Positions 20,620 through 42,673 of a stretch of 64,000 nucleotides of DNA are shown piece by piece; position 1 is the stretch's first letter; every line of letters starts with the position of its first letter. This DNA is from Microbacterium salsuginis (GTDB lineage Bacteria > Actinomycetota > Actinomycetes > Actinomycetales > Microbacteriaceae): contig NZ_JABACI010000002.1 in NCBI RefSeq assembly GCF_012524205.1, positions 434,001 to 498,000 on the forward strand, in the 5' to 3' direction. The notes beneath the pieces were generated by a model that saw nothing but the letters and a program-made list of their open reading frames with translations, made no database searches and was not told the DNA's origin. The translations under genes and the position numbers were made by a program.

Positions 20620-22533
20620 TCAGCCCGCCACGGCGGCGGAGGTGTGCTGGAGCAGGAACGTCTGTGCGAGGAAGCCCGACAGCTCCTCGGTCGCGGCCAG
20701 TGGGAAGATGCCGGCGACGTACTGGTCGGGCCGGACGACCACGACGACGCCGTCGCGCGAGACCCCGCGCTCCGCGAAGATGTCGGCCTCGCTCCACGCG
20801 CTGGGCGCAGCGGCATAGACCTTCTCCCAATCGGTGAGGCCGAGCGGTCCGGTCTTGGGCAGGAAGACCTCCGGCACCTGCGCGATGTCGACGTCTTCGT
20901 AGCGCTGCTGATAGATCGCCTTGACGTCGAACACGGCATCGACGTCGGCGCCGGCGGGCGTGAACCGTGCGATCGGCGCGTCGGCCGACAGCATCCATTC
21001 CGCCCATCGTGACAGCGCCGACGACTCCCCCGCAGCCGGGGCATCGGCGAACGCGTAGATGCGCCACCGCCCGTCGGCCTTGGCATGATGCCCCAGGTGC
21101 ACGACGTTGCCGTCGCACACGCGCACCACCTCGACCGACTTGAAGCGCTTGCCCAGCGGGAAGCCCTCCGCGAGCGCCTGGTGCGCAGCATCCGTCACGA
21201 TCATCGACGGGCCGTACTGCGTCATGAATCCGGACGGGAACTCGGCCGTCGCGAGATAGTACGTCGCGAGGTCCTGCGGGTCGGAGATCTCTTCGGGTTT
21301 GCGCGCCATCAGCGCCGACCATTCGCGGTCGAAGTCGATCAGCTGCTGGGCGACCGGCTGCCGCTCGGCCGAGTACGTCGACAGCAGTGTCGCGGGGCTC
21401 AGGCCGGACAGGACGTGCCCGAGCTTCCAGCCCAGGTTGAAGCCGTCCTGCATCGAGACGTTCATGCCCTGACCGGCCTTTGCGCTGTGCGTGTGGCACG
21501 CATCGCCCGCCAGGAAGACGCGAGGATCGTGGCCCTGATCCACGTCGACGTCGTCGAACTTGTCGGTGACGCGGTGCCCGACCTCGTAGACGCTGTGCCA
21601 TGCCACCTGCTTCACGTCGAGCGTGTACGGATGCAGGATCTCGTTGGCCCGGCGGATGATCTCGTCGATCGGGGTCTGACGCACGCGGTGCTCGTCGTTC
21701 TCGGGCACTTCGCCGAGATCGATGTACATGCGGCTGAGGTAGCCGCCCTCACGCGGGATGTGGAGGATGTTGCCGGCGGCGGAGTTGATCGCGCACTTGG
21801 TGCGCCAGTCGGGAAAGTCGGTGTTGACCAGCACATCCATGACACCCCACGCGTGGGAGGCGAACTGCCCCACGTGCTTGCGGCCGATCGCCTCGCGCAC
21901 GCCGCTGCGCGCGCCGTCGCAGCCGACGACGTACCTGGCGCGCACGGTCTGCTCCTGGCCGGCACGCTCGCCGGCCGTGTGACGCACGCGCACCTCGACG
22001 GGATACTCCCCATCGTCCTGGAGCGTGAGCCCGACGAACTCGACGCCGTAGTCCGGCGTGATCCGGCCGGGCCCGTACGCCGCGGCCTCGGCGAAGTAGT
22101 CGAGCACGCGCGCCTGGTTGACGATGAGGTGCGGGAACTCGCTGATCTTGAACGCGTAGTCCTCGGTGCGCGCGGTGCGGATGATGTTGCGCGGGTTCTC
22201 GGGGTCAGGACCCCAGAAGTTCATGTAAGCGATGTTGTACGCCTCGGCGATGATTCGCTCGGCGAAGCCGAAGGCCTGGAACGTCTCGACGCTGCGCGGC
22301 TGGATGCCGTCGGCCTGGCCGAGCACGAGCCGGCCGTCTCGTCGCTCGATGACCCGGGTCGTGACGCCGGGGAACTGCGACAGCTGAGCGGCGAGCAGCA
22401 TGCCGGCCGGACCCGAGCCGACGATGAGGACGTCGATCTCGTCCGGGAGTTCCACCGGACGATCGATGCCGGTCCCGGCCGCGTCCTGGATGCGCGGCTC
22501 GCCCGACACATACCCGTGGTGGTGGAACTGCAT
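20620..22533 (-). CDS. FAD-dependent aromatic monooxygenase, 3-hydroxybenzoate 4-hydroxylase-like
   Basis: 637 residues. FAD Rossmann motif GSGPAG at 39-44, the second FAD motif with Asp344 in DPRVFLAGDACHTHSAKAGQGMN, the DG motif region CDGARSGVREAIG, and a C-terminal thioredoxin-like domain (about 460 on). This architecture belongs to phenol hydroxylase/MobA-type enzymes, and the length and motifs fit 3-hydroxybenzoate 4-monooxygenase (product protocatechuate). The ATG at 22533 has GAGGAG seven bases before it. A double GTTC-N7-GAAC site lies in the gap to the divergent IclR gene, so induction by an aromatic acid through that regulator is likely. No protocatechuate ring-cleavage gene is in the window. 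Confidence 0.82.
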   Translation of the reverse strand: MQFHHHGYVSGEPRIQDAAGTGIDRPVELPDEIDVLIVGSGPAGMLLAAQLSQFPGVTTRVIERRDGRLVLGQADGIQPRSVETFQAFGFAERIIAEAYNIAYMNFWGPDPENPRNIIRTARTEDYAFKISEFPHLIVNQARVLDYFAEAAAYGPGRITPDYGVEFVGLTLQDDGEYPVEVRVRHTAGERAGQEQTVRARYVVGCDGARSGVREAIGRKHVGQFASHAWGVMDVLVNTDFPDWRTKCAINSAAGNILHIPREGGYLSRMYIDLGEVPENDEHRVRQTPIDEIIRRANEILHPYTLDVKQVAWHSVYEVGHRVTDKFDDVDVDQGHDPRVFLAGDACHTHSAKAGQGMNVSMQDGFNLGWKLGHVLSGLSPATLLSTYSAERQPVAQQLIDFDREWSALMARKPEEISDPQDLATYYLATAEFPSGFMTQYGPSMIVTDAAHQALAEGFPLGKRFKSVEVVRVCDGNVVHLGHHAKADGRWRIYAFADAPAAGESSALSRWAEWMLSADAPIARFTPAGADVDAVFDVKAIYQQRYEDVDIAQVPEVFLPKTGPLGLTDWEKVYAAAPSAWSEADIFAERGVSRDGVVVVVRPDQYVAGIFPLAATEELSGFLAQTFLLQHTSAAVAG

Positions 22534-28827: not shown

Positions 28828-28834
28828 CGGGGCC

Positions 28835-29140
28835 TCACAGGTGCGGCACGTCGGCCGAGGCCGTGTACGCGGTCGGGTAACGGTAGTCCTTGCCCTGCGG
28901 CGACTCGAAGAACGCTCCGCGGGCGTCGGGATCGGATGCTGCGATCGCGGTCGACGGAACGACCCAGATCGAGACCCCCTCGCCCCGTCGCGTGTACAGG
29001 TCGCGCGCGTTGTGCAGCGCGAGCTGCGCGTCGGGCGCGTGCAGCGACCCCGCGTGAACGTGCGAGAGTCCGCGCGACGAACGCACGAACACCTCCCACA
29101 GCGGCCAGGTCTCGGCCGCGCCGGCGCCGGGCGCGCTCAT
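28835..29140 (-). CDS. paaB: phenylacetyl-CoA 1,2-epoxidase subunit PaaB
   Basis: 101 residues, the normal PaaB size. The core [40 protein letters not shown] and [12 protein letters not shown] matches PaaB, a small bridging subunit of the complex. The ATG at 29140 overlaps the paaA stop by four bases. Confidence 0.92.
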
Positions 29141-30105
29141 GACGCCACCTTCTCTCGAGCCTGCTGCTTCTCGGCGTAGGCACGGGCGGCCTCGCGGACC
29201 CACGCTCCGTCCTCGTGCGCGCGGCGGCGCTTGGCGATGCGGATGCTGTTCGCCTGGCCGCGGCCGGCCAGGACTTCGCGGAACTCGTCCCAGTCCAGAT
29301 CGCCGTAGTCCCAGTGCCCGCGCTCCTCGTTCCAGCGCAGGTCGGGGTCGGGCAGGGTCACACCGAGGATCTCGGCCTGGGGCACGATCATGTCGACGAA
29401 CCGCTGGCGCAGGTCGTCGTTGGAGAAGCGCTTGATGTTCCACGCCATCGACTGCGCAGAGTTCGGCGAGGCGTCGTCGGGAGGCCCGAACATCATGAGG
29501 GCCGGCGCGTACCAGCGGTTGACGGATTCCTGGGCCATCACGCGCTGGGCTTGGGTGCCGTTCATGAGGGCCAGCAGGATCTCGAACCCTTGCCGCTGGT
29601 GGAACGACTCCTCCTTGCAGATGCGGACCATCGCACGGGCATACGGACCGTACGACGCGCGGCACAGCGGCACCTGGTTGCAGATCGCGGCGCCGTCGAC
29701 CAGCCATCCGATCGAGCCCATGTCCGCCCACGTCGGCGTGAGGTAGTTGAAGATCGACGAGTACTTGGCCTTGCCGGTGAGCAGCTGCTCGTACATCTCC
29801 TCGCGCGGCGTGCCGAGAGTCTGCGCGGCCGAGTAGAGGTACAGCCCGTGACCGGCCTCGTCCTGCACCTTCGCCATCAGGATCGCCTTGCGCTGCAGGC
29901 TCGGTGCGCGCGTGATCCAGTTGCCCTCGGGCTGCATGCCGATGATCTCGGAGTGCGCGTGCTGCGAGATCTGCCGCACCAGCGTGCGCCGATAGGCGTC
30001 GGGCATCCAATCGGCGGGCTCGACCTTCTGGTCGGCCGCGATGAGCTCCTCGAAACGCGCGGGGCCGGCCTCGTCGAGTTCGCGGGCTGGTGTCGCCGTG
30101 GTCAT
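29137..30105 (-). CDS. paaA: phenylacetyl-CoA 1,2-epoxidase catalytic subunit PaaA
   Basis: 322 residues. Candidate di-iron ligands are Glu53 (HSEIIG), Glu83 and His86 (DEAGH) and Glu166 with His169 (EESFH), the ferritin-like ExxH pattern. PaaA inserts oxygen into the ring of phenylacetyl-CoA using O2 and electrons from PaaE. GGAGG precedes the ATG at 30105. It heads paaABCDE-paaG and faces a TetR gene across 54 bases that hold a candidate operator. Confidence 0.95.
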
Positions 30106-30124
30106 GCGCGCCTCCTTGCGCTAC

Positions 30125-30142
30125 TTACCGTTCGTTCAGTAA
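30125..30142. promoter_or_regulatory. candidate PaaR operator between paaA and tetR
   Basis: TTACCGTTCGTTCAGTAA is an imperfect palindrome (TTAC...GTAA ends). Read on the minus strand it starts TTACTGAACG, the same ten bases as the site at 33822 upstream of the PaaF-like gene, so both operons probably share the neighbouring TetR regulator. Confidence 0.65.
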
Positions 30143-30159
30143 TGCTACTCTTGCGTTCC

Positions 30160-30786
30160 ATGACGGGCAACACGGCCGCAGCCGATGCCGCGACGTTCCG
30201 AAAAGGGAACGGCCGCACCGACCGCGCGCCGTACGACCTCGACACCGTGCTCGACATCGCCGTCGCGACGTTCAACGAGCGGGGCTATGAAGCCACCTCG
30301 ATCAGCGTGCTCGCCGAGCGCCTCGGCACCAGCAAGTCCGCGCTCTACTACCACGTGAGCGGCAAGGAGGAGCTCCTCCAGCGAGCGCTCGACCGCGCCT
30401 TGGGCGAGCTCGAGGCGGTGCTCGAAGCATCCGTTCCCGGCGACGCCGCCGACCACCTGGAGTTCGTGCTGCGCGGGGCCGTGCGCGTGCTCGTCGAGGA
30501 GCTGCCCTACGTCACGCTCCTGCTGCGTGTGCGCGGCAACACCGACATCGAGCGCGACGCGCTGCGCCGGCGCCGCGAGTTCGACCATCGCGTGTCGCAG
30601 CTGGTCGAGGCCGCGCACGCGGAGGGCTCCCTGCGCGCCGACCTCGACCCCGGCACGACCTCGCGCCTGCTGTTCGGCATGATCAACTCGATCGTCGAGT
30701 GGTACCGCCCCGGCGGGCCGCTGGATGCCGCGGCCCTCGCCGACGCCACCGTCTCTGTCGCCCTCGACGGCCTCCGCGCCCGCTGA
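30160..30786 (+). CDS. paaR: TetR-family regulator, probable PaaR
   Basis: 208 residues. TetR HTH at about 24-70 (DTVLDIAVATFNERGYEA, SISVLAERLGTSKSALYYHVSGKEEL in pieces), then a C-terminal domain containing YVTLLLRVRGNTDIERDALRRRREFD. This looks like the TetR regulators that repress paa genes until phenylacetyl-CoA accumulates. It is divergent from paaA. Two sites sharing TTACTGAACG flank the paa module. The ATG at 30160 keeps a normal N-terminus; an in-frame ATG at 30142 is the alternative. Confidence 0.85.
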   Translation: MTGNTAAADAATFRKGNGRTDRAPYDLDTVLDIAVATFNERGYEATSISVLAERLGTSKSALYYHVSGKEELLQRALDRALGELEAVLEASVPGDAADHLEFVLRGAVRVLVEELPYVTLLLRVRGNTDIERDALRRRREFDHRVSQLVEAAHAEGSLRADLDPGTTSRLLFGMINSIVEWYRPGGPLDAAALADATVSVALDGLRAR

Positions 30787-30823
30787 TCTCCCCGCGCTCC
30801 GCGCCCGAACCCCGCACCAGGTC

Positions 30824-30906
30824 GCGAAAACACCAGCCCGTCACCCGACACGCCGGGGCGTGGGGACCTTCGCCGGCGCGTCGCCGTGACCGACTGGTGT
30901 TTTCGC
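30824..30906 (-). repeat. dispersed palindromic element, copy 3
   Basis: GCGAAAACACCAG at the left end and CTGGTGTTTTCGC at the right end, with the inner GACACGCCGG-like pair (CCGACACGCCGG and CGCCGGCGCGTCG). Relative to copies 1 and 2 it is inverted. It fills the convergent gap between the paaR-like gene and paaZ. Confidence 0.88.
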
Positions 30907-30927
30907 AACCGAGGACGACGGGCGGCG

Positions 30928-33039
30928 CTACTCCTTGGCGACGAGGGTCAGCACGTCGTAGGTCGCCACGACCTCGTCGCGCTGGTTCACCAGCACGGCG
31001 TCCCAGCGCACCTCGCCGTACTCCTCGCTCTCGCGGGGGCTGATCTGCTTGGCGGTGAGCGTCACGCGCACCTCGTCGCCGGGTGACACGGGCGTCACGA
31101 ACCGCAGGTTCTCGAGACCGTAGTTGGCGAGCACCGGACCAGGATCGGGGTCGACGAACAACCCCGCGGCCCACGACAGCAGCAGGTAGCCGTGGGCCAC
31201 GCGTCCGGGGAAGAACGGATTGGCCGCCGCGGCCTCCTCGTCCATGTGGGCGTAGAACGTGTCGCCCGTGAACTCGGCGAAGTGCTCGATGTCGTCGAGG
31301 GCCACTGACCGCGGCGGCGAGACCACACGATCGCCCACGCGCAGCCGGGCGAGCGGCTTGCGGAAGGGATGGATGCCGTCATTCGTCGTCGCCCCTGCGC
31401 GCCATTGTCCGGTCAGCCGCGTGAGCACCTCGGGCGAGCCCTGCAGAGCCGTGCGCCGCATGTAGTGCAGCACCGACCGCATGCCGCCGAGCTCCTCGCC
31501 GCCGCCGGCGCGCCCCGGACCGCCGTGCACGAGGTGCGGCACCGGCGAGCCGTGGCCGGTCGACGTGCGCGCGACCGAGCCGTCGAGCACGAGCACGCGT
31601 CCGTGCCACGGCGAGATGCCCGCGACGAGCGTGCCGACCACGTCCGGATCGGCCGAGCACACGGTCGCCACCAGCGACCCGCCGCCCAGGTTCGCCAGTC
31701 GCACCGCGTCGTCGAGGTCACGATAGCCGAGCACCGACGCGACGGGTCCGAACGCTTCGATGTCGTGGACCGCCGGGGCCGAGGCATCCCGGAACCGCAG
31801 CAGGATCGGCGACACGAAAGCCCCCTCGCCGGCACCGGCGCCGGCGACTTCGGGCTCGTCGAGCGAACCCACCACGATCTCGCCACCGCCCGCCACGAGG
31901 TCCATGACGCGCGCCCGCACCTCATCCCGCTGCGCGAGGCTCGCGAGCGGCCCCATCGTCACGCCCTCGGCACGCGGGTCGCCCAGCACGACCTTCGCGG
32001 CGAGTCGGTCGCGCACCGCCTCGATGACATCGTCGACGGATGCCTCAGGCACGAGCACGCGCCGGATCGCCGTGCACTTCTGCCCGGCCTTGGCGGTCAT
32101 CTCCGTCACGACGGAGGCCACGAAGGCGTCGAACTCGGCCGTGCCGCGTACCGCGTCGGAGCCGAGGATCGCGGCGTTGACGGAGTCGGCCTCGGTGGTG
32201 AGCGACACACCCCGGACCACGACGGCGTCGTCGCGCCGCAGCATCCGTCCCGTCGATGCCGACCCCGTGAAGCCGACCGCGTCCCCAGCGTCGAGGAGGT
32301 CGAGGAACCCGTGCGCGGATCCGATCGCGAGCTGCAGTGACCCCTCGGGCAGCAGACCGGAGTCGACCATGACCCGCACCGCCGCCTCGGTGAGGTAGGC
32401 CGTCGGCGTCGCCGGCTTGACGATCGTGGGAACGCCGGCCAGGAAGGCGGGGGCGAACTTCTCGAGCATGCCCCACACCGGGAAGTTGAAGGCGTTGACC
32501 TGGAACGCGACGCCGGGCAGGCGGGACCACAGGTGCTGACCGCCGAAGCTTCCGTCGCGCGCGAGTCCCTCGGGGGCGCCGTCGACGAGCGTCGTGGCGT
32601 TGGGAAGCTCCCGCCGGCCCTTCGAGGCGTAGGTGAAGAGCACGCCGATGCCGCCGTCGACGTCGACCACGCTGTCGCGCGCCGTCGCTCCGGTCTGCGC
32701 GCTGATGGCGTAGAGGTCGTCTTTCGCCGCGGTGAGGGCCTGGGCGAGCGCCTTGAGGATGAGGGCGCGGCGGTGGAACGGCAGATCCCCGAGGGATGCC
32801 TGGCCCATCGTGCGTGCATGCTCGACGGCGGCAGCGAGGTCCGGCGCGCCGCCCATGCGTGCGACGGGAGCCCCTGTGGAGGCGTCCTGGAGGAGGGTCG
32901 TGCGGGTCGCATCGGGCACCCGCCACGCGCCGGCGATGTACGACTCGAGCAGCGGCGTCTCGGCGCCGTGCTCCCCGGTCTCGGTGGTCGCGGACTCGGG
33001 CGCGGGAGTGTCGGCGCCGATGGGGGTTTCGAGGGTCAT
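30928..33039 (-). CDS. paaZ: PaaZ, oxepin-CoA hydrolase / 3-oxo-5,6-dehydrosuberyl-CoA semialdehyde dehydrogenase
   Basis: 703 residues with an N-terminal aldehyde dehydrogenase domain (about 28-540: FNFPVWGMLEKFAPAFLAG, GFTGSASTGRML, LTTEADSVN with the Glu, AGQKCTAIRR with the catalytic Cys) and a C-terminal MaoC-type hotdog hydratase (about 560-700: HFAEFTGDTFYAHMDEEAAA, FPGRVAHGYLLLSWAAGLF). This fusion opens the oxepin ring and oxidises the resulting aldehyde. The ATG at 33039 overlaps the stop of the hydratase gene by four bases; the open frame upstream is only a shadow of that gene. Confidence 0.94.
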   Translation of the reverse strand: MTLETPIGADTPAPESATTETGEHGAETPLLESYIAGAWRVPDATRTTLLQDASTGAPVARMGGAPDLAAAVEHARTMGQASLGDLPFHRRALILKALAQALTAAKDDLYAISAQTGATARDSVVDVDGGIGVLFTYASKGRRELPNATTLVDGAPEGLARDGSFGGQHLWSRLPGVAFQVNAFNFPVWGMLEKFAPAFLAGVPTIVKPATPTAYLTEAAVRVMVDSGLLPEGSLQLAIGSAHGFLDLLDAGDAVGFTGSASTGRMLRRDDAVVVRGVSLTTEADSVNAAILGSDAVRGTAEFDAFVASVVTEMTAKAGQKCTAIRRVLVPEASVDDVIEAVRDRLAAKVVLGDPRAEGVTMGPLASLAQRDEVRARVMDLVAGGGEIVVGSLDEPEVAGAGAGEGAFVSPILLRFRDASAPAVHDIEAFGPVASVLGYRDLDDAVRLANLGGGSLVATVCSADPDVVGTLVAGISPWHGRVLVLDGSVARTSTGHGSPVPHLVHGGPGRAGGGEELGGMRSVLHYMRRTALQGSPEVLTRLTGQWRAGATTNDGIHPFRKPLARLRVGDRVVSPPRSVALDDIEHFAEFTGDTFYAHMDEEAAAANPFFPGRVAHGYLLLSWAAGLFVDPDPGPVLANYGLENLRFVTPVSPGDEVRVTLTAKQISPRESEEYGEVRWDAVLVNQRDEVVATYDVLTLVAKE

Positions 33040-33818
33040 GCGTTCTTCCTCTCCAGCCGCTGGTCGAGCCATGCGGTCATGCGCTCGTGTTTGGCGGGCG
33101 AGCCGAAGCACTCCGCCTGCGCGGCGTCGGCGGCGGCCCGCGGGTCGTCGGTGGGGTCGTCGATCAGGCGCTTCGTGTGCCGGATCGCGAGCGGATCCCG
33201 CGCCGCGATGCGATCGGCCAGCGCATCGGCCGCGGCGTCGAGCGTGGCGGGCGGATGCACTGCGGTGACGAGCCCTGCGGCGAGGGCCTCGTCGGCGCCG
33301 ATGACGCGACCGGCGAGCAGCATCTCCTTGGCGAGAGGCTCGCCCACGAGCCGGGGCAGCCGCCACGTCGCACCGGCGGCGGGCACGATGCCCAGCGACG
33401 GCTCCGGGCTGCCGAAGCGCGCCCGATCGCTCGCGATCCGGAGGTCGGCGGCGTACGCGAGCTCGGCGCCGCCCCCGAGAGCCCACCCGTCGACGGCGGC
33501 GATCACCGGCATGGGCAGCCGGGCGATGCGGTCGAACAGGCGCGAGTTGATGCCCTCGAGCGCGTCGGCGGGGGTGCGGTCGCGCAGCTCTGCGATGTCG
33601 GCGCCGCCCGCGAAGACGCCGTCGCCACCGGCGATCAGCAGGATGCGGGGATCGCGCTCGAGCTCGTCGCACACGCCGTGCAGCTCGTCGACCATGGCCT
33701 TGTCGATCGCGTTGCGCGCGTCGGGGCGGTGCAGCCGCACCCAGACCCGGTCGGCCCGGTTCTCGCGCAGGATCGTCGGCATCGGCATCCGTTCGTCATC
33801 GTCGACCGCGAGCGCCAT
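33036..33818 (-). CDS. paaF: enoyl-CoA hydratase, PaaF-like
   Basis: 260 residues of the crotonase fold. Both hydratase glutamates are present: in GGGAELAYAADLRIA and in GSPEPSLGIVPAAGATWRL. The oxyanion loop is GGDGVFAGGADIAEL. This is the PaaF pattern, hydrating 2,3-dehydroadipyl-CoA, in contrast to the PaaG-like protein at 25548. Coupled to paaZ by a 4-nt overlap, so the two form an operon. A candidate PaaR operator begins 4 bases upstream of the start. Confidence 0.85.
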   Translation of the reverse strand: MALAVDDDERMPMPTILRENRADRVWVRLHRPDARNAIDKAMVDELHGVCDELERDPRILLIAGGDGVFAGGADIAELRDRTPADALEGINSRLFDRIARLPMPVIAAVDGWALGGGAELAYAADLRIASDRARFGSPEPSLGIVPAAGATWRLPRLVGEPLAKEMLLAGRVIGADEALAAGLVTAVHPPATLDAAADALADRIAARDPLAIRHTKRLIDDPTDDPRAAADAAQAECFGSPAKHERMTAWLDQRLERKNA

Positions 33819-33821
33819 GGA

Positions 33822-33842
33822 TTACTGAACGCTCGTTCTGTA
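33822..33842. promoter_or_regulatory. candidate PaaR operator between paaF and paaI
   Basis: Starts TTACTGAACG and contains the perfect palindrome GAACGCTCGTTC (33827-33838) with TACT/TGTA flanks. It lies in the 77-bp gap between the divergent PaaF-like and PaaI genes. The first ten bases equal those of the site between paaA and paaR. Confidence 0.7.
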
Positions 33843-33895
33843 CGATGATCGCACAGCACCGCGGACGGCTCAACGCCGAGCGGGGAGGATCCGGC

Positions 33896-34309
33896 ATGGA
33901 CGATGTCTACGCGACCGCGCAGGGACGCCGCATGATCGAGGCGGATGCCGCATCCGCCGCACTCGGCATGCGCGTGGTGCGCGCGCAGCCGGGCCGCGCG
34001 ATCGTGCGCATGACGGTGCGCGCCGACATGCTCAACGGCTTCGCGGTGGCCCACGGCGGGCTCGTCTTCGCCCTTGCCGACACCGCGCTCGCACTCGCGT
34101 GCAACGAGACGGATGCCGTCACGCTGGTCGCAGGAGCCGACATCGCCTTCCTCTCCCCCGCTCGCGAGGGCGACGAGCTCGAGGCCGTCGCCGAGCGCCG
34201 GACGATCGAGGGCCGGTCGGGCCTCTACGACGTCCGGGTCTCGGCCGCCGGGCGTGTGGTCGCCGAGCTGCGGGGCCGCACCCGCACCACCGGCATGCCC
34301 CGACCCTGA
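33896..34309 (+). CDS. paaI: PaaI-type hotdog thioesterase
   Basis: 137 residues. The hotdog signature NGFAVAHGGLVFALADTAL holds the catalytic HGG and Asp of PaaI thioesterases, which release CoA from dead-end acyl-CoA intermediates of the paa route. I chose the ATG at 33896 because GGGGAGGA lies nine bases upstream; the open frame to 33845 lacks a ribosome site. Divergent from paaF-paaZ across the shared operator. Confidence 0.9.
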   Translation: MDDVYATAQGRRMIEADAASAALGMRVVRAQPGRAIVRMTVRADMLNGFAVAHGGLVFALADTALALACNETDAVTLVAGADIAFLSPAREGDELEAVAERRTIEGRSGLYDVRVSAAGRVVAELRGRTRTTGMPRP

Positions 34310-34462: not shown

Positions 34463-35845
34463 TCAGGCCTTCGAGAGCCCGTAGATCGGGCTGACCGACT
34501 GCTCGGCCTCGTGGTCGGGGCCCAGCGGGATGCCGCTGCGGTCGCGCAGCAGCAGCGTCGCGATGAGTCCGAGCATCGTCATGCCTGCCAGGTACCAGGT
34601 CACCGCGGTGGTCGAGCCGGTCTGCTGCACGAGCCACGTCGCGATGGTCGGGGCGAACGCACCGCCGAGGATGGCGCCGATGGCGTACGAGATCGACACG
34701 CCGGAGAACCTGATGGACGCCGGGAAGAGCTCGGAGTAGAGCGCCGCCTGGGGGCCGTACGTGAAGCCGAGGCCGATCGTGAGGATCGCGAGCCCGAGGA
34801 ACAGCAGCCAGATGTTGCCGGTGTTCACGAGCGGGAAGAGAGCGAACACACCGACGAGCTGCAGGATCCATCCGGCGATGTAGGTCGTGCGGCGTCCGAG
34901 CCGGTCCGAGATGAAGCCGGCGGCGAGGGTCGACAGCAGCCAGGTCACGGCCGAGCCGGTGACGGCCCACAGCACTGGTCCGCGCTCGAGGCCGAGCGGC
35001 CCGTCGGGGTTGGTCGAGTAGCCCTGGATGTAGCCACCGGTCGTCATGTACCCCACGGCGTTGTTGCCCGCGAAGACGAGAGCGGCGATGAGCACCAGCA
35101 GTGCGTGCTTGCGGAAGAGCTGGACGATCGGCATCCGCGCCTTCTCCTTGCGCTCGGCGAGCTCGGCGAACACCGGGCTCTCTTCGACGCGGCGGCGGAC
35201 GTAGTAGCCGACGAGGATCAGCACGACGCTGAGCAGGAACGGCACGCGCCAGCCCCACTGCAGGAACTGGTCACCGGGGGCGATCACGGTCATGAGCGCC
35301 ATGACGCCCGATGCCAGCAGCAGGCCCAGCGGCACGCCGATCTGCGGCGACGCGCCGAACGCTCCGCGACGCGACTTGGGCGCGTGCTCGACCGCCATCA
35401 GCACCGCGCCGCCCCATTCGCCACCCGCCGAGATGCCCTGCAGGATGCGCAGCAGCACGAGCAGGATCGGCGCCGCGATGCCGATCGCCTCGTACGTGGG
35501 CAGCACACCGATGAGCGCGGTCGCCGCGCCCATGAGGATCAGCGTCCACATCAGCACGAGCTTGCGCCCGTACTTGTCGCCGAAGTGACCGGCCAGGAAC
35601 GCGCCGAGCGGCCGGAAGAGGAAACTCACGCCGACCGTCGCGAAGGCGATCAGGGCGCTGTCGGCGCCGAGCGGGGCGAAGAACAGCTGCCCGAACACCA
35701 GCCCGACGGCGGTGGCGTAGATGAAGAAGTCGTACCACTCGACGGTGGTGCCGACGATCGTCGCGAAGACGACGCGCCGCCGGTCGACGGATGCGGCGAT
35801 GGTGCCGGTGGGCGTGAAGCCCTCGGAGGGTTGCGGGGTGCTCAT
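34463..35845 (-). CDS. MFS transporter, MHS type, probable aromatic-acid uptake
   Basis: 460 residues, 12 helices. MHS motif WYDFFIYATAVGLVFGQLF near the N-terminus, loop motif GHFGDKYGRKLVL in helix 2-3, and YSELFPASIRFSGVSISY. It is divergent from the homoprotocatechuate operon across a 130-bp gap, and its convergent neighbour is paaI. Uptake of a phenylacetate-type acid is the natural inference from position, but the sequence does not fix the substrate. It resembles the MHS carrier at 588-2063 in fold. Confidence 0.87.
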   Translation of the reverse strand: MSTPQPSEGFTPTGTIAASVDRRRVVFATIVGTTVEWYDFFIYATAVGLVFGQLFFAPLGADSALIAFATVGVSFLFRPLGAFLAGHFGDKYGRKLVLMWTLILMGAATALIGVLPTYEAIGIAAPILLVLLRILQGISAGGEWGGAVLMAVEHAPKSRRGAFGASPQIGVPLGLLLASGVMALMTVIAPGDQFLQWGWRVPFLLSVVLILVGYYVRRRVEESPVFAELAERKEKARMPIVQLFRKHALLVLIAALVFAGNNAVGYMTTGGYIQGYSTNPDGPLGLERGPVLWAVTGSAVTWLLSTLAAGFISDRLGRRTTYIAGWILQLVGVFALFPLVNTGNIWLLFLGLAILTIGLGFTYGPQAALYSELFPASIRFSGVSISYAIGAILGGAFAPTIATWLVQQTGSTTAVTWYLAGMTMLGLIATLLLRDRSGIPLGPDHEAEQSVSPIYGLSKA

Positions 35846-35926
35846 GTGCGTGACTCCTGTGTCTGTGCGTGACGTCGTCGTCTCCGGTGGACGGATCGGG
35901 ATCGCTTGCCGGAACGTGGACGATCA

Positions 35927-35945
35927 TATACGATTTCGGATACGA
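35927..35945. promoter_or_regulatory. candidate operator of the hpa-operon GntR regulator
   Basis: TATACGA (35927-35933) and GATACGA (35939-35945) are near-repeats 12 bases apart, in the 130-bp gap between the MHS transporter and the FAHD-RraA gene, 31 bases upstream of the latter's start. FCD-type GntR regulators bind such short repeats. The IclR gap carries a similar TCGTATACGA. Confidence 0.4.
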
Positions 35946-35975: not shown

Positions 35976-37619
35976 GTGGACGAGAAGATGGATGCCGCAC
36001 CCCCGTCGAGCACGGAGGCCCCGAGCGATCCCCGGTTCGCCGCCCTCCTCGGCCGGCCCGGCAAGATCATCGCGATCCACCTGAGCTACGCGTCGCGAGC
36101 GGATCAGCGCGGACGCCGGCCGCAGCATCCGTCGTACTTCTTCAAACCGTCGAGTTCCGTCGCCGCCTCCGGCAGCACGATCGAGCGGCCGGCGGGCACC
36201 GAGCTGCTCGCCTTCGAGGGCGAGATCGCTCTCGTGATCGGCGCGCCGGCACGGCGGGTTCCGCTCGCTGCGGCGTGGTCGCACGTCGCAGCCGTCACCG
36301 CCGCTAACGACTTCGGCCTGTACGACCTGCGCGCGAACGACAAGGGGTCCAACGTCCGGTCCAAGGGCAGGGACGGCTACACGCCGATCGGGCCCGCCCT
36401 CATCGACGCCCGTGCGGTCGATCCGACGGCGCTGCATCTGCGCACGTGGCGCAACGGCGAGCTCGTGCAGGACGACACGTCGGCCGGCATGATCTTCCCG
36501 CTCGCCCAGCTCGTCGCCGACCTCTCGCAGCACTTCACGCTCGAACCGGGCGACGTGATCCTCACCGGCACCCCCTCCGGCTCGTCCGTCGCCGTGCCCG
36601 GCGACGTGATCGAGGTCGAGGTCTCGGTCGACGGCGGACCGACCACAGGCCGGCTCGTCACCTCGGTCGTGCAGAGCGAGGACGGGTTCGATCCCGAGCT
36701 CGGGTCCCTTCCCGCCGCCGACGACCTGCAGCGCACCGAGGCGTGGGGCTCACCCGAGGCCGTACCGGTCGTCGAGCGCGGGAGCGCCGCGACCGAGACG
36801 GAACGCGCTGAGGATGCGAGCGGCGTTTCGTCTCGCTTCGCTCGCTCAACGACCGAGGCGGGCGGGAGCGCCGCGGCCGAGAGCGCCCTCTCGACCGCTC
36901 TGCGTGCCAAGCTCGAGGCCGCGCCGGTGGCCGGGCTGTCGGCGCAGCTGCGCAAGCGCGGGCTGAACAACGTGCACATCGACGGCGTCTCGCCGCTGCG
37001 CCCGGCTGCCCAGAACGGCGCTCCCCTGAACGGTGCTGCGAAGCTGGTCGGCACCGCGCGCACGCTGCGCTTCGTACCGAACCGTGAGGACCTCTTCGCC
37101 TCGCACGGCGGCGGCTACAACGCGCAGAAGCGCGCGTTCGACGCCGTGGGCGAGGGCGAGGTGCTCGTGATCGAGGCCCGCGGCGAGACCGGCTCGGGCA
37201 CGCTGGGCGATGTGCTCGCGATCCGGGCGCACGCGCGCGGCGCGGCCGGCATCGTGACCGACGGGGGCGTGAGGGATGCCGCGGCCGTCGCCGCGGTCGG
37301 CATCCCGGTGTACTCCACCGGCGTGCACCCCGCCGTGCTCGGCCGCAAGCACGTGCCGTGGGACGCCGACATCGCGGTGGCCTGCGGCGGGGCGACCGTG
37401 CTCCCGGGCGACGTGGTCGTGGGCGACGCCGACGGCGTCATCGTGATCCCGCGCGCGATCGCCGAGGAGGTCGCCGACGCCGCGCTCGCGCAGGAGGACG
37501 AGGACGCCTGGATCGCCGCGCGCGTCGCGGAGGGGCATCCCGTCGACGGCCTCTTCCCGATGAACGCCGAGTGGCGCGCGCGCTTCGACGCCGACCGCGC
37601 GGGCGAGGAGTCACGATGA
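35976..37619 (+). CDS. FAHD-RraA fusion protein of the homoprotocatechuate operon
   Basis: 547 residues. N-terminal half (about 30-236): fumarylacetoacetate hydrolase (FAHD) fold with metal ligands Glu81 and Glu83 (FEGEIALVIG) and Asp112 (NDFG), as in HpaG/HpcE. Residues about 237-304 are a low-complexity linker. C-terminal half (about 305-530): RraA/HMG-aldolase-like domain with Asp412 (LGD), Arg433 and Asp434 (GGVRD), at the same spacing (21 and 1) as Asp102, Arg123 and Asp124 of the pyruvate aldolase family. Characterised HpaG enzymes are two FAHD repeats (isomerase and decarboxylase); here the second half is RraA-like. The GTG at 35976 follows GAGGGAG. It is first in the operon and overlaps gntR by four bases. 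Confidence 0.88.
   Translation: MDEKMDAAPPSSTEAPSDPRFAALLGRPGKIIAIHLSYASRADQRGRRPQHPSYFFKPSSSVAASGSTIERPAGTELLAFEGEIALVIGAPARRVPLAAAWSHVAAVTAANDFGLYDLRANDKGSNVRSKGRDGYTPIGPALIDARAVDPTALHLRTWRNGELVQDDTSAGMIFPLAQLVADLSQHFTLEPGDVILTGTPSGSSVAVPGDVIEVEVSVDGGPTTGRLVTSVVQSEDGFDPELGSLPAADDLQRTEAWGSPEAVPVVERGSAATETERAEDASGVSSRFARSTTEAGGSAAAESALSTALRAKLEAAPVAGLSAQLRKRGLNNVHIDGVSPLRPAAQNGAPLNGAAKLVGTARTLRFVPNREDLFASHGGGYNAQKRAFDAVGEGEVLVIEARGETGSGTLGDVLAIRAHARGAAGIVTDGGVRDAAAVAAVGIPVYSTGVHPAVLGRKHVPWDADIAVACGGATVLPGDVVVGDADGVIVIPRAIAEEVADAALAQEDEDAWIAARVAEGHPVDGLFPMNAEWRARFDADRAGEESR
36824..36854 (+). repeat. CGTTTCGTCTCGCTTC-type repeat inside the fusion-protein linker
   Basis: The 31-bp stretch starting CGTTTCGTCTCGCTTCGC and ending GCTCAACGACC is translated as the SSRFARSTT part of the linker (residues about 283-293). 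I recall this sequence, mostly in reverse (GGTCGTTGAGCGAG...), as a frequent short repeat of Microbacteriaceae and Nocardioides genomes, usually between genes. Confidence 0.55.
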
Positions 37620-38305
37620 AGACCGAGCCGCTCACGTCGCAGAGCAAATCGCAGCGCGCCTACCACTGGATCAAAGAGCGCATCGCACGGCAGGAGTACA
37701 CGCCGGGCTACCGGCTGGTGCTCGGCGCGATCGCCGGCGACCTCGACATGAGCGTCGTACCGGTGCGCGAGGCGATCCGCCAGCTCGAAGCCGAGGGCCT
37801 CGTGACGTTCGAGCGCAACGTCGGCGCGCGCGTGTCGATGGTCGACGACTCGCAGTACCGCTTCAGCATGCAGGCGCTGTCGATCCTCGAGGGCGCCGCC
37901 ACCGCGCTCGCGGCACGCCGGCTGACGGCCGACGACATCCGCAACGCACGCCGCATCAACGAGCTGATGATCGAGACGCTCGAGCACTTCGATCCGCGCG
38001 CGTTCACCTCACTGAACCAGGAGTTCCACGCGGCACTGTTCACCAAGTGCGCAAATCCGCGCATGCTCGAGCTCGTGAATGCCGAGTGGGCGCGGCTCGG
38101 CCATCTGCGCGACTCGACGTTCAGCTTCGTGCCGGGCCGGGCCGCCGAATCCGTGCGCGAGCACGAGAACATCGTTCAGCTCATCGAGTCCGGCGCGCCG
38201 CTGGGCGAGATCGAGAAGGCCGCCCGCCGGCACCGGTCGGCGACCCTCGACGCGTACATGATCCACGAGCACCCCGACGAGGCGCTCGGACTGCCGGCGT
38301 TCTGA
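37616..38305 (+). CDS. GntR-family (FCD) regulator of the hpa operon
   Basis: 229 residues. Winged HTH at about 12-75 (RAYHWIKERIARQEYTPGYRL, LDMSVVPVREAIRQLEAEGLV) and a C-terminal FCD helical domain with the metal-binding pattern (FTSLNQEFHAALF, HENIVQLI). The ATG overlaps the FAHD-RraA stop by four bases, so it is co-transcribed with the pathway genes. It may bind the TATACGA/GATACGA repeats before 35976. The ligand is unknown. Confidence 0.88.
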   Translation: MKTEPLTSQSKSQRAYHWIKERIARQEYTPGYRLVLGAIAGDLDMSVVPVREAIRQLEAEGLVTFERNVGARVSMVDDSQYRFSMQALSILEGAATALAARRLTADDIRNARRINELMIETLEHFDPRAFTSLNQEFHAALFTKCANPRMLELVNAEWARLGHLRDSTFSFVPGRAAESVREHENIVQLIESGAPLGEIEKAARRHRSATLDAYMIHEHPDEALGLPAF

Positions 38306-38365: not shown

Positions 38366-39889
38366 ATGACCGACACCACCACCGCGCTCGATGCCCGGCA
38401 CGTGCCCGAAGGCCTGCCCGACCGCATCCAGCACTACATCGACGGCGAGTTCGTCGACTCGGCCGACGGCGACACGTTCGACGTGCTGGACCCGGTGTCG
38501 AACGAGACCTACGTCCAGGCTGCTGCAGGCAAGAAGGCCGACATCGACCGGGCCGTCGCCTCCGCGCGACGCGCCTTCGCCGAAGGGCCGTGGCCCCGGA
38601 TGCTGCCGCGCGAGCGATCGCGCGTGCTGCACCGCATCGCCGACATCGTCGAATCACGCGACGCGCGGCTCGCAGAGCTCGAGTCGTACGACTCGGGCCT
38701 GCCGATCACGCAGGCGCTGGGGCAGGCGCGGCGCGCAGCCGAGAACTTCCGCTTCTTCGCCGACCTCATCGTGGCGCAGGCCGATGACGCCTACAAGGTG
38801 CCGGGCCGGCAGATGAACTACGTCAACCGCAAGCCGATCGGCGTCGCGGGTCTCATCACGCCGTGGAACACGCCGTTCATGCTCGAGTCGTGGAAGCTCG
38901 GTCCGGCACTCGCGACCGGCAACACGGTGGTGCTCAAGCCCGCCGAGTTCACGCCGCTGTCGGCCTCGCTGTGGGCGGGGATCTTCGAGGAGGCCGGGCT
39001 CCCCCAGGGCGTGTTCAACCTCGTGAACGGACTCGGGGAGGATGCCGGCGACGCGCTCGTGAAGCATCCGGACGTCCCGCTCATCTCGTTCACGGGAGAG
39101 AGCCGCACCGGCCAGATCATCTTCGGCAACGCCGCCCCCTTCCTGAAGGGCCTCTCGATGGAGCTCGGCGGCAAGTCGCCGGCCGTCGTGTTCGCCGATG
39201 CCGACCTCGAGGCCGCGATCGACGCCACGATCTTCGGCGTCTTCTCGCTCAACGGCGAGCGCTGCACCGCCGGCTCCCGCATCCTCGTCGAGCGCCCGGT
39301 CTACGACGAGTTCGTCGAGCGCTACGCCGCCCAGGCCGACCGTGTGATCGTCGGATACCCGCACGACCCCACGACCGAGGTCGGGGCGCTGGTGCACCCG
39401 GAGCACTACGACAAGGTGATGTCGTACGTCGAGATCGGCAAGACCGAGGCGCGGCTCGTCGCCGGCGGCGGCCGCCCGGACGGGTTCGAGACCGGCAACT
39501 TCGTGCGGCCCACCGTGTTCGCCGATGTCGCGCCGGAGGCCCGGATCTTCCAGGAGGAGATCTTCGGACCCGTCGTCGCGATCACCCCGTTCGACACCGA
39601 CGAGGAGGCGCTCGAGCTCGCGAACGGCGTGAAGTACGGCCTCGCCGCCTACGTGTGGACCAACGACCTCAAGCGCGCCCACAACTTCTCGCAGGCCATC
39701 GAGGCCGGCATGGTGTGGCTCAACTCCAACAACGTGCGCGACCTGCGCACGCCGTTCGGCGGGGTCAAGGCCTCAGGCCTCGGGCACGAGGGCGGCTACC
39801 GCTCGATCGACTTCTACACCGACCAGCAGGCCGTGCACATCACCCTCGGCCCGGCGCACAACCCCACGTTCGGCAAGGCCTCGGCTTGA
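38366..39889 (+). CDS. hpaE: 5-carboxymethyl-2-hydroxymuconate semialdehyde dehydrogenase
   Basis: 507 residues, aldehyde dehydrogenase. Catalytic Cys300 in GERCTAGSRI, Glu266 in MELGGKSPAVVF, NAD-binding TPWNTPFMLESWKLGPAL, and the HpaE-like C-terminus FGGVKASGLGHEGGYRSIDFYTDQQAV in pieces. It oxidises the ring-cleavage product of homoprotocatechuate. AAGGAG stands eight bases before the ATG. Order gntR-hpaE-hpaD-hpaH-hpaI. Confidence 0.9.
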   Translation: MTDTTTALDARHVPEGLPDRIQHYIDGEFVDSADGDTFDVLDPVSNETYVQAAAGKKADIDRAVASARRAFAEGPWPRMLPRERSRVLHRIADIVESRDARLAELESYDSGLPITQALGQARRAAENFRFFADLIVAQADDAYKVPGRQMNYVNRKPIGVAGLITPWNTPFMLESWKLGPALATGNTVVLKPAEFTPLSASLWAGIFEEAGLPQGVFNLVNGLGEDAGDALVKHPDVPLISFTGESRTGQIIFGNAAPFLKGLSMELGGKSPAVVFADADLEAAIDATIFGVFSLNGERCTAGSRILVERPVYDEFVERYAAQADRVIVGYPHDPTTEVGALVHPEHYDKVMSYVEIGKTEARLVAGGGRPDGFETGNFVRPTVFADVAPEARIFQEEIFGPVVAITPFDTDEEALELANGVKYGLAAYVWTNDLKRAHNFSQAIEAGMVWLNSNNVRDLRTPFGGVKASGLGHEGGYRSIDFYTDQQAVHITLGPAHNPTFGKASA

Positions 39890-39924: not shown

Positions 39925-41091
39925 ATGACCGACCGCAAAGACATGACCCTCACCTCATCGGGCTTCTACGTCAGCCAGGAGGCGCCGATCCACGCCGCCG
40001 ACCCGGTGCCGACGCCGACGGCGCCCGCCCCCGACATCCTCCGCTGCGCGTACATGGAGCTCGTCGTCACCGACCTCGCGGCATCCCGGGCCTTCTACGT
40101 CGACGTGCTCGACCTCGTCGTCACCGAGGAGGACGAGAACACCGTCTACCTGCGCTCGATCGAGGAGTTCATCCACCACAACCTCGTCCTGCGCCAGGGG
40201 CCTGTCGCGGCGGTCGCCGCCTTCTCGTACCGCGTGCGGACCCCGGAGGACCTCGACAGGGCCGTCGCGTTCTACGAGGAGCTCGGCTGCGAGATGCGAC
40301 GCAACACGGAGGGCTTCACGAAGGGCATCGGCGACTCGGTGCGCGTGGTGGACCCGCTCGGCTTCCCGTACGAGTTCTTCCACGACGTCGAGCACGTCGA
40401 GCGGCTCGCATGGCGTTACGACCTCTACACCCCGGGAGCGCTGGTGCGCCTCGACCACTTCAACCAGGTCACGCCCGACGTGCCCCGCGCGGTGAACTTC
40501 ATGCAGTCGCTGGGCTTCCGCGTCACCGAGGACATCCAGGACGAGGCCGGCACCGTCTACGCCGCGTGGATGCGCCGCAAGCCGACCGTGCACGACACCG
40601 CGATGACCGGCGGCGACGGCCCGCGCATGCACCACGTCGCGTTCTCGACGCACGAGAAGCACAACATCCTCGCGATCTGCGACAAGCTCGGGGCGCTGCG
40701 CCGCTCCGACGCGATCGAGCGCGGCCCCGGCCGCCACGGTGTGAGCAACGCGTTCTACCTGTACCTGCGCGACCCGGACGGACACCGCGTGGAGATCTAC
40801 ACGCAGGACTACTACACCGGCGATCCCGACAACCCCGTCGTGACGTGGGACGTGCACGACAACCAGCGCCGCGACTGGTGGGGCAACCCGGTGGTCCCGT
40901 CGTGGTACACCGAGGCATCCCTCGTCCTCGACCTGGACGGCAACCCGCAGCCGGTCGTCGCGCGCACCGACGAGTCCGAGATGGCCGTGACGATCGGCGC
41001 CGACGGCTTCTCGTACACGCGCCCCGACGAGAAGGCCGAGGAGCTGCCCAGCTGGAAGCAGGGCGAGTACAAGCTCGGCCACCAGCTGTAG
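39925..41091 (+). CDS. hpaD: 3,4-dihydroxyphenylacetate 2,3-dioxygenase
   Basis: 388 residues. Vicinal-oxygen-chelate fold with metal ligands His178 (LDHFNQV), His237 (MHHVAF) and Glu290 (HRVEIYT). The spacings of 59 and 53 are those of the well-studied Brevibacterium/Arthrobacter homoprotocatechuate dioxygenases, numbered 155/214/267. It opens the ring of homoprotocatechuate extradiolly. AAGGA lies eight bases before the ATG at 39925. The N-terminal 35 residues (APIHAADPVPTPTAPAPD) form a Pro-rich tail. Confidence 0.95.
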   Translation: MTDRKDMTLTSSGFYVSQEAPIHAADPVPTPTAPAPDILRCAYMELVVTDLAASRAFYVDVLDLVVTEEDENTVYLRSIEEFIHHNLVLRQGPVAAVAAFSYRVRTPEDLDRAVAFYEELGCEMRRNTEGFTKGIGDSVRVVDPLGFPYEFFHDVEHVERLAWRYDLYTPGALVRLDHFNQVTPDVPRAVNFMQSLGFRVTEDIQDEAGTVYAAWMRRKPTVHDTAMTGGDGPRMHHVAFSTHEKHNILAICDKLGALRRSDAIERGPGRHGVSNAFYLYLRDPDGHRVEIYTQDYYTGDPDNPVVTWDVHDNQRRDWWGNPVVPSWYTEASLVLDLDGNPQPVVARTDESEMAVTIGADGFSYTRPDEKAEELPSWKQGEYKLGHQL

Positions 41092-41099: not shown

Positions 41100-41885
41100 A
41101 TGCTGTCACCTGATGTCATCGCGCAGCTCGCCGACGAGCTCGCCGAAGCCGACCGCACGCACAGCGTGATCCCGCGGATCACGGCACGCCACCCCGACGC
41201 GACGGTCGAGGACTCGTATGCGATCCAGGGTGTCTGGCGCGATCGGATGATCGCGGACGGCCGCCGCCTCGTCGGGCGAAAGATCGGGCTGACGTCCAAG
41301 GCGATGCAGCAGGCGACCGGCATCACCGAGCCGGACTACGGCGTGATGTTCGACGACACGGTGTACCGCTCCGGCGCCGAGATCCCGGTCGACCGCTTCT
41401 CGAACGTGCGCATCGAGGTCGAGCTCGCCTTCGTGCTGAAGGCGCCGCTCGAGGGCCCCGACCGCACCCCCGACGACGCCCTCGCCGCGATCGACTACGC
41501 CGTGCCCGCACTGGAGGTGCTCAACTCGCACATCGAGCTCGAGGGGCGCACGATCGTCGACACGATCGCCGACAATGCCGCGTACGGCGCGATGGTCCTC
41601 GGCACGGTGCACAAGCGCCCCGACGAGATCGACCTGCGCTGGGTCCCCGGCGTGCTGGCTCGAAACGGCGAGATCGAAGAGACCGGGGTCGCGGCGGGCG
41701 TGCTCGGCCACCCCGCGACCGGCGTCGCATGGCTCGCGAACAAGTTCCACCAGCACGGCGCGCGCCTCGAGGCGGGCGAGATCATCCTCGCCGGATCGTT
41801 CACCCGCCCCCTGTGGGTGTCGCGGGGCGATAGCGTGCTGTGCGACTACGGACCCATGGGAGTGATCGAATGCCGCTTCGTCTGA
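41100..41885 (+). CDS. hpaH: 2-oxohept-4-ene-1,7-dioate hydratase
   Basis: 261 residues of the 2-oxopent-4-enoate hydratase/fumarylacetoacetate-like fold. Seen: GRKIGLTSKAMQQATGI, PDYGVMFDDTVY, the metal site IEVELAFVL and NAAYGAMVLG, and ILAGSFTRPLWVSRGD. It hydrates the diene to 4-hydroxy-2-oxoheptanedioate for HpaI. The ATG at 41100 has AGGGGG before it and follows hpaD after eight bases. It overlaps hpaI by 16 bases. Confidence 0.92.
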   Translation: MLSPDVIAQLADELAEADRTHSVIPRITARHPDATVEDSYAIQGVWRDRMIADGRRLVGRKIGLTSKAMQQATGITEPDYGVMFDDTVYRSGAEIPVDRFSNVRIEVELAFVLKAPLEGPDRTPDDALAAIDYAVPALEVLNSHIELEGRTIVDTIADNAAYGAMVLGTVHKRPDEIDLRWVPGVLARNGEIEETGVAAGVLGHPATGVAWLANKFHQHGARLEAGEIILAGSFTRPLWVSRGDSVLCDYGPMGVIECRFV

Positions 41886-42673
41886 CGCCGACCTTCCGCA
41901 CGGCACTGGCCGAGGCATCCGGCCCCCTCGCGGGCATGTGGGTGTGCTCGGGTTCGCCGCTCGTGGCCGAGATCTGCGCCGGGTCGGGCCTGGATTGGCT
42001 GCTCATCGACATGGAGCACTCCCCCAACGGTCTGGAGTCGGTGCTGTCGCAGCTGCAGGCCGTCGCCGCGTACCCGGTGACGCCCGTCGTCCGCGTGCCG
42101 ATCGGTGACGTCGTGACGATCAAGCAGGTGCTCGACCTCGGAGCCCAGAACCTCCTCGTGCCGATGGTGTCGTCGAGGACGGATGCCGAGGCCGCCGTCG
42201 CAGCGGTGCGCTACCCGCCACGGGGCACGCGCGGGGTCGGCTCGGCGCTCGCGCGGTCGGCGCGGTGGAACCGCGTCGACGACTACCTGCCCGACGCCGA
42301 CGCGCACGTGTCGCTGTTCGTGCAGATCGAGACGGCCGCCGGCGTCGACGCGGCCGCCGAGATCGCCGCCGTCGACGGCGTCGACGGCGTCTTCGTGGGC
42401 CCGAGCGACCTCGCCGCCTCGATGGGGCTGCTCGGGCAGCAGACCCACCCGGATGTCATCGCGGCGGCCCTCCGCGTGTTCGAGGCGGTGCGCGAGGCGG
42501 GCAAGCCGGTCGGCGTCAACGCGTTCGACCCGGCCGCGGCGGACGCCTACCTCGAGGCGGGGGCGTCGTTCATCCTCGTCGGCGCCGACACCGCACTGCT
42601 CGCACGCGGGTCGGAGGCACTCGCGGCCCGGTTCACCGGCGCCCGCGGCGAATCCGGCCGGGCCTCGTACTGA
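41870..42673 (+). CDS. hpaI: 4-hydroxy-2-oxoheptanedioate aldolase
   Basis: 267 residues, class II pyruvate aldolase. His50 (MEHSPNG), Arg75 (RVPIGD), Glu154 (QIETAAG) and Asp180 (GPSDLAASMG) keep the 25 and 26 spacings of His45/Arg70 and Glu149/Asp175 in HpaI. It cleaves 4-hydroxy-2-oxoheptanedioate to pyruvate and succinic semialdehyde. The ATG at 41870 lies inside the hpaH end, so translation is coupled. It is the last gene of the operon. Confidence 0.93.
   Translation: MPLRLTPTFRTALAEASGPLAGMWVCSGSPLVAEICAGSGLDWLLIDMEHSPNGLESVLSQLQAVAAYPVTPVVRVPIGDVVTIKQVLDLGAQNLLVPMVSSRTDAEAAVAAVRYPPRGTRGVGSALARSARWNRVDDYLPDADAHVSLFVQIETAAGVDAAAEIAAVDGVDGVFVGPSDLAASMGLLGQQTHPDVIAAALRVFEAVREAGKPVGVNAFDPAAADAYLEAGASFILVGADTALLARGSEALAARFTGARGESGRASY

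Follow-up and report, generated by a model that had tools for sequence, protein, structure and literature searches.

A FAHD-RraA fusion protein as a candidate stand-in for HpaG in the homoprotocatechuate operon of Microbacterium salsuginis

The fusion gene and its operon

We analysed a 64,000-nucleotide stretch of the Microbacterium salsuginis genome (contig NZ_JABACI010000002.1, positions 434,001 to 498,000; hereafter the window). It carries a gene for a protein in which a fumarylacetoacetate hydrolase domain (FAHD) is joined to an RraA-like domain. This gene is the first in a run of the order fusion-GntR-hpaE-hpaD-hpaH-hpaI. Many actinobacteria carry such a fusion in their cluster for the breakdown of homoprotocatechuate, which is formed from tyrosine-like compounds, whereas other bacteria use single or paired enzymes of another type. 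The fusion belongs to the homoprotocatechuate (HPC) pathway and its operon, and its sequence and setting suggest that in all likelihood it stands in for HpaG (HpaG1 plus HpaG2) there. The evidence for this pathway role is far stronger than that for assigning single reactions to the two domains. The features of the operon, in window coordinates, are as follows.

35976..37619, plus strand: FAHD-RraA fusion, 547 amino acids, NF009399/PRK12764
36066..36668, plus strand: FAHD half, residues 31-231, with E81, E83 and D112 at codons 36216, 36222 and 36309
36669..36884, plus strand: joint, a bridge (about residues 239-258) with invariant columns, then a variable linker of low predicted local confidence (pLDDT)
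36885..37604, plus strand: RraA half, PRK08245 subfamily, residues 304-543, with D412, R433 and D434 at codons 37209, 37272 and 37275
37616..38305, plus strand: GntR/FCD regulator, whose ATG overlaps the stop of the fusion gene (ATGA)
38366..39889, plus strand: hpaE, 5-carboxymethyl-2-hydroxymuconate semialdehyde (CHMS) dehydrogenase (TIGR02299, 649 bits, cut-off 638)
39925..41091, plus strand: hpaD, 3,4-dihydroxyphenylacetate 2,3-dioxygenase (TIGR02295, 429 bits, cut-off 321)
41100..41885, plus strand: hpaH, hydratase (TIGR02312, 331 bits, below the cut-off of 351.5)
41870..42673, plus strand: hpaI, aldolase (TIGR02311, 316 bits, below the cut-off of 368.8)

Starts given by the scans were slightly off for hpaD (40000 with Pfam, 39976 with NCBIfam), hpaH (41109) and hpaI (41840), and hpaH had no Pfam match at 0.001.

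The open reading frame (ORF) of the fusion runs uninterrupted from a GTG start, preceded by a purine-rich stretch, to a TGA stop. Pfam placed FAA_hydrolase at residues 31-231 (E 1.5e-49) and RraA-like at residues 349-490 (E 1.4e-31). NF009399/PRK12764 was matched over the full length, from residue 20 to 545, with 792.1 bits (cut-off 444). NCBIfam already lists the architecture as this equivalog, under the name 'fumarylacetoacetate hydrolase family protein'; the model has the same architecture as the fusion and names no reaction. New in this analysis are the link of the family to the HPC operon and the role proposed for its RraA domain. No paper on a FAHD-RraA fusion protein was found in a literature search that reached few subscription papers.

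The bridge that follows the FAHD is conserved among the fusions, and the AlphaFold model, of moderate quality (pLDDT 71.9, predicted template modelling score (pTM) 0.45), gave pLDDT values below 50 at residues 242-254 and 256-301 of the joint. When the model was searched with Foldseek, the top matches were the HpcE structures 1WZO and 1I7O, and the 50 rows listed out of 595 were FAHD proteins throughout, with no RraA.

The original prediction had placed a FAHD metal set at Glu81, Glu83 and Asp112 and a second set, Asp412, Arg433 and Asp434, at the spacing of the 4-hydroxy-4-methyl-2-oxoglutarate/4-carboxy-4-hydroxy-2-oxoadipate (HMG/CHA) aldolases. Both placements were borne out by alignment. 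The first set aligned with residues 276, 278 and 307 in the C-terminal half of Escherichia coli HpcE (1GTT; hand count). The second aligned with 102, 123 and 124 of the solved HMG/CHA aldolase 3NOJ (phmmer; hand count), with exactly 20 residues between D412 and R433 (D-X20-R-D). For D412 we assume a role in the RraA site. Arg-123 and Asp-124 of the aldolase are named as catalytic and metal-binding in PMC5065237. All six residues were intact in 93 of 93 fused rows, which comprised the window and 92 loci; three genes occur twice (L119/L136, L123/L138 and L126/L130), leaving at most 90 distinct sequences, and the ORFs were aligned untrimmed, some with long N-terminal extensions. Conservation of both catalytic sets is more than chance.

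Association with the homoprotocatechuate pathway

We compared gene content around the best 80 of at least 313 fusion relatives found among genome contigs. Both hpaE and hpaD lay on the same stretch as the fusion in 79 of the 80 loci; at the exception, from Streptomyces (L057), GntR, hpaH and hpaI were still there. The hydratase gene hpaH was found in 78 loci and hpaI in 77, and the loci without them were short contigs of 8.9-9.2 kb. A wider sample was provided by 396 genomes of the phylum. The fusion scored over its cut-off in 8 of these and HpaD in 13, and all 8 fell within the 13; the plain hypergeometric value for this (9e-14) is not a true probability because the sampled genomes are related. 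Fusion and hpaD were no more than about 2.6 kb apart in 7 of the 8. In genome G338 they lay on separate contigs, and the fusion adjoined an HpaE-like gene (53%) and a DapA-type HpaI relative. A variant order, hpaH-hpaI-fusion-GntR-hpaE-hpaD, was seen in two genomes (G225 and G268; loci L166 and L167).

Among 72,556 plasmid records, four covered at least 80% of the fusion, all Actinomycetota by name. The plasmid of Rhodococcus sp. NBC_00297 carries a full hpa cluster with the fusion. On pTC2 of Paenarthrobacter aurescens TC1 the fusion gene is labelled 'dimethylmenaquinone methyltransferase', and its gene table, which is incomplete, lists no gene at the expected place of hpaD. The hpaGLEDHI cluster of Corynebacterium aurimucosum has the same gene order, a gene called hpaG preceding the regulator, and its authors placed hpaF elsewhere, at cauri_0890 (PMC2830990). 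Growth on tyrosine is described for both Arthrobacter sp. Rue61a and A. arilaitensis, and for the former also growth on 4-hydroxyphenylacetate and HPC (PMC3534580, PMC2991359).

The absence of HpaF from the operon, also part of the original prediction, extended to the whole genome, in which PF02962 had no match. That model was likewise without a match in 33 of 33 genomes with an HpaD hit, including those with HPC clusters that lack RraA. As a control it was positive in records of Deinococcus radiophilus and Burkholderia stagnalis, and it had no match in 14 control genomes. Because clusters without RraA lack HpaF just the same, the loss of HpaF is not readable as a consequence of the fusion. 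We rejected the idea that a missing hpaF is tied to the fusion.

No complete HpaG was found elsewhere in the genome either: no FAHD scored over the HpaG-N or HpaG-C cut-off, the best reaching 121 of 228.65 and 200 of 276.4 bits, respectively. The 200 bits belong to a stand-alone FAHD (C5:386121) with a close relative in genome G343. One tautomerase of the 4-oxalocrotonate tautomerase (4-OT) type is encoded elsewhere in the genome.

Three further features lie upstream of the fusion.

35923..35945, plus strand: conserved operator-like element
34463..35845, minus strand: divergent major facilitator superfamily (MFS) transporter; closest to the metabolite/H+ symporter model TIGR00883 (392 bits, below the cut-off of 443)
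20638..22533, minus strand: FAD monooxygenase, possibly the entry hydroxylase, 67% identical to the one flanking the hpa cluster on the Rhodococcus plasmid

Of the 80 relatives, 72 had a palindrome ATnnTATAnnAT ahead of the fusion, compared with 0 of 80 in-gene controls and a shuffle average of 0.05; the pattern was picked on the same upstream stretches in which it was later counted. The palindrome is a possible operator, perhaps one bound by the GntR protein. The element at 35923-35945 had one match in the window at up to 3 mismatches and none in 100 shuffles. Monooxygenases of this kind flank hpa clusters on two plasmids, and the one in the window lies about 13 kb from the operon. Phenylacetate (paa) catabolic genes, judged by eye, adjoin the hpa operon at 25548-34309, and 12 of the 80 loci carry a relative of the ORF at 29137-30105.

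Descent of the two halves

HpaG, known as HpcE in the structures 1GTT and 1I7O, shares with the fusion the place in the operon, the FAHD fold and the metal triad of its C-terminal half. It consists of two FAHDs, whereas the fusion has one FAHD and an RraA domain and misses both TIGR cut-offs. The FAHD half scored 149.6 of 276.4 bits with HpaG-C and 96.8 of 228.65 with HpaG-N, and the model for bifunctional HpaG with two FAHDs, NF011750, gave 141.1 bits against a cut-off of 811.

In the FAHD tree, the fused FAHDs formed one group (support 100/98), next to six unfused FAHDs of distant actinobacteria (97/90, or 100/99 with fewer long rows). Burkholderia HpaG2, the Deinococcus FAHD and the FAHDs of three HPC clusters without RraA made up a separate clade (98/98). 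Forcing the FAHD of the fusion into this HpaG2 clade was rejected by the approximately unbiased (AU) test with p 0.034, which is moderate evidence because the grouping was chosen after a first tree had been seen and that tree is weakly supported at its deepest split (75/34). The tree used for the AU test was a second one, built without HpaG1 and two long FAHDs of the window's own genome, and the G081 FAHD was omitted from the trees, its stretch holding Ns. With its FAHD half outside the HpaG2 clade, the fusion appears to replace HpaG entirely and not just one of its halves. We therefore abandoned the original proposal that RraA simply substitutes for HpaG's second FAHD.

The closest unfused relatives of the FAHD half were examined as the eight FAHD-only matches above 220 bits. 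A gene of the acetoacetate decarboxylase (ADC) family lay within 5 kb in seven of them (L158-L163 and L168; identified with Pfam in three and with tblastn in the others), and the eighth (L131) is on a 6.5 kb contig without such a gene. The group labelled 'adc' in the tree includes L131 and excludes L163 and L168. This arrangement suggests that a FAHD of this kind may act together with a separate decarboxylase. At 2859-9656 of L162 we found an HpaE-like protein (499 bits, below cut-off), ADC, FAHD, a 414-residue unknown protein and an HpaB-family protein, and also a LigB-type, HpaD_Fe-like dioxygenase (159 bits, below cut-off). Judged by its genes, this locus resembles a further pathway of HPC type in which ADC takes the position that RraA has in the fusion. 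At L158, L159, L160, L163 and L168, the unfused FAHD is accompanied by glutamine-synthetase-like, VOC/extradiol-like and ADC-family genes and, by eye, a cytochrome-P450-like gene, a catabolic cluster kept in several distant actinobacteria.

The RraA half scored over the cut-off of NF006093 (PRK08245), with 228.7 bits against 208. With the HMG/CHA aldolases (LigK/GalC type, 3NOJ) it shares the match in the catalytic region and the D-X20-R-D arrangement; it differs in missing the LigK cut-off (TIGR02798, 90.6 of 304.5 bits; NF006731, 94.1 of 179) and belongs to PRK08245 instead. A function as RNase E regulator was considered and rejected, the half scoring 54.9 of 136 bits with NF006875 and 27 of 241.25 with TIGR02998 and keeping its catalytic residues. 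Its best solved relative was 5X15 (E 1.1e-35, same D-X20-R-D spacing), which we take to be RraAS2 of Streptomyces coelicolor. RraAS2 is a stand-alone protein studied as an RNase E inhibitor outside the HPC pathway, whereas the RraA described here is fused. The name RraAS2 is cited in PMC8563752.

An unfused counterpart was found in genome G109. This RraA is 52% identical to the fused one and gave 239 bits with NF006093 (cut-off 208). Its gene overlaps a gene for a DapA protein of HpaI type (312 bits, below the cut-off of 396.7), which is followed by hpaD (349 bits, over cut-off), and no FAHD match was found on the 17 kb read around it. Lists of neighbouring genes were based on GC content at third codon positions (GC3) and are wrong in places. 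The G109 RraA paired with the fused RraA of G338 (98/99); the RraA tree was poorly resolved, 14 of 18 inner branches being open, and only this pairing was used. At 18 of 19 hand-picked positions it matched the RraA of the window, N replacing H451. K385, R402 and H459 are common to both and absent from the Rhizobium and G257 RraAs of the set.

Two further unfused RraAs stand in other surroundings. At 4876-7311 of L139, an RraA (37%) is accompanied by an aldo/keto reductase and an Amidohydro_2 protein, a setting that hints at the breakdown of sugar acids. The Rhizobium relative at 7971-8669 of L148 (43%), annotated as a ribonuclease regulator, is adjoined by a gene for a short-chain dehydrogenase/reductase (SDR) family oxidoreductase and by amidohydrolase/amidase genes.

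Proposed reactions and competing assignments

The substrate of the HpaG step, 5-oxo-pent-3-ene-1,2,5-tricarboxylate (OPET), is a 2-oxo-3-enoate with its departing carboxylate on C5, and loss of CO2 yields the dienol(ate) of a 2-oxo acid. We lean slightly towards a reading in which the fusion would turn OPET into 2-oxohept-3-ene-1,7-dioate (OHED) in one chain, RraA decarboxylating and FAHD isomerising. In the RraA half, a divalent metal bound by D434 would anchor OPET by its 2-oxo acid end while R433 stabilises the enolate, and the vinylogous carboxylate would be removed to give 2-hydroxyhepta-2,4-diene-1,7-dioate (HHDD), in a manner comparable to the decarboxylation of oxaloacetate by HMG/CHA aldolase. 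Using a metal triad of its own, the FAHD half would then ketonise HHDD to OHED for HpaH. The preceding conversion of 5-carboxymethyl-2-hydroxymuconate (CHM) to OPET would proceed spontaneously or through another tautomerase. The best reading is that one chain carries two successive steps, as originally suggested.

Precedents for the RraA chemistry come from two enzymes. In the metal/arginine site of the RraA-fold HMG/CHA aldolase, oxaloacetate is converted to the enolate of pyruvate (PMC5065237). FlDet of Flavobacterium, an RraA-family decarboxylase of a 2-oxo diacid and in this like the proposed RraA half, dehydrates and decarboxylates a 2-keto-3-deoxy hexarate, yielding alpha-ketoglutaric semialdehyde (PMC8563752). 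We infer that this CO2 loss may be vinylogous in the same way as that of OPET. FlDet differs in its substrate and in standing alone, and is likened to the fusion by description; EDTA had no effect on it, and among the 2-oxo acids tried it acted on its own substrate only (PMC8563752). Together, the HMG/CHA aldolase, FlDet and the free RraA of G109 favour decarboxylation by RraA and isomerisation by FAHD, although the division of labour itself could fall either way.

Several observations weigh against this reading. The likeness of FlDet to a metal enzyme is loose, because EDTA had no effect and only its own substrate was accepted. The FAHD triad is that of the assigned decarboxylase half of HpcE, and the one HpaG1 compared, from Burkholderia, lacks both glutamates of the triad, which argues for FAHD as the decarboxylase. 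In four HpaD-positive genomes (G032, G058, G081 and G111) the cluster includes a FAHD and lacks any RraA match. The G109 pathway may be incomplete, because an IS110 transposase lies upstream and the aldehyde dehydrogenase is only 42% identical. The stand-alone FAHD C5:386121 outscores the fusion on HpaG-C (200 vs 152 bits) and could act in trans. The separate descent of the FAHD half depends on a tree with a weak deepest split and on a post hoc AU value. The ADC proteins have other chemistry too, and six of the seven ADC loci are without HPC genes. Finally, the 80 loci were chosen as nearest relatives, most of them from Microbacterium, and are a biased sample.

With the roles reversed, the FAHD half would be the OPET decarboxylase and the RraA half either the HHDD isomerase or the partner that the decarboxylase needs. 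We consider this the less likely arrangement but a serious rival. It agrees with the alignment of E81, E83 and D112 to 276, 278 and 307 of HpcE, in the half assigned as decarboxylase, with the HpcE structures 1WZO and 1I7O as top Foldseek matches, and with the existence of HPC clusters that have FAHD and no RraA. OPET decarboxylase (OPETD) of Acinetobacter, moreover, needs HHDD isomerase (HHDDI) for efficient decarboxylation and is helped by CHM isomerase (CHMI) (PMC12718150). However, the FAHD half lies outside the HpaG2 clade and below the HpaG-C cut-off, G109 has its free RraA next to hpaD and no FAHD match there, and the RraA-fold enzymes described in PMC5065237 and PMC8563752 cleave or decarboxylate.

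The missing HpaF might also be explained if the RraA half replaced it in the step from CHM to OPET, the FAHD half alone doing the work of HpaG. PF02962 was absent from the genome and from all 33 HpaD-hit genomes although the model works on controls, the cluster of D. radiophilus pairs a single FAHD with HpaF, and HMG/CHA aldolase exchanges the methyl protons of pyruvate, that is, it enolises 2-oxo acids (PMC5065237). This explanation is nevertheless improbable: PF02962 is equally absent from HPC clusters without RraA, CHM isomerises spontaneously (PMC12718150), and a 4-OT-type tautomerase is encoded elsewhere in the genome. An additional pyruvate aldolase or oxaloacetate decarboxylase at the end of the pathway, outside the OPET segment, would suit the D-X20-R-D site shared with HMG/CHA aldolase and is very improbable. 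An hpaI gene adjoins here and is found in 77 of 80 relatives, with the remaining three truncated by the end of their contig; the RraA half stays below the LigK cut-off (90.6 of 304.5 bits); and G338 and G109, both distant, retain a DapA-type relative of HpaI next to RraA.

Taking decarboxylation by RraA and isomerisation by FAHD together with the descent of the halves, we tentatively propose, at slightly less than even odds, that an RraA-fold domain serves as a vinylogous OPET decarboxylase and has displaced the FAHD decarboxylase in the actinobacterial HPC pathway. The RraA family is otherwise known mainly for RNase E regulators and pyruvate aldolases. It would occur free, as in G109, or fused to an isomerase of separate FAHD descent, carrying two steps in one chain with neither HpaG nor HpaF needed.

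How the two domains of HpcE function is still described as ambiguous (PMC12718150), and the fusion, if the proposal is true, would offer a clean test of which HpaG-type domain does what. A catalogued family of fusion proteins would gain a function, and names such as the 'dimethylmenaquinone methyltransferase' of pTC2 would be corrected. The RraA fold would gain a reaction, and a gap in the breakdown of tyrosine and 4-hydroxyphenylacetate by Gram-positive bacteria would be filled.

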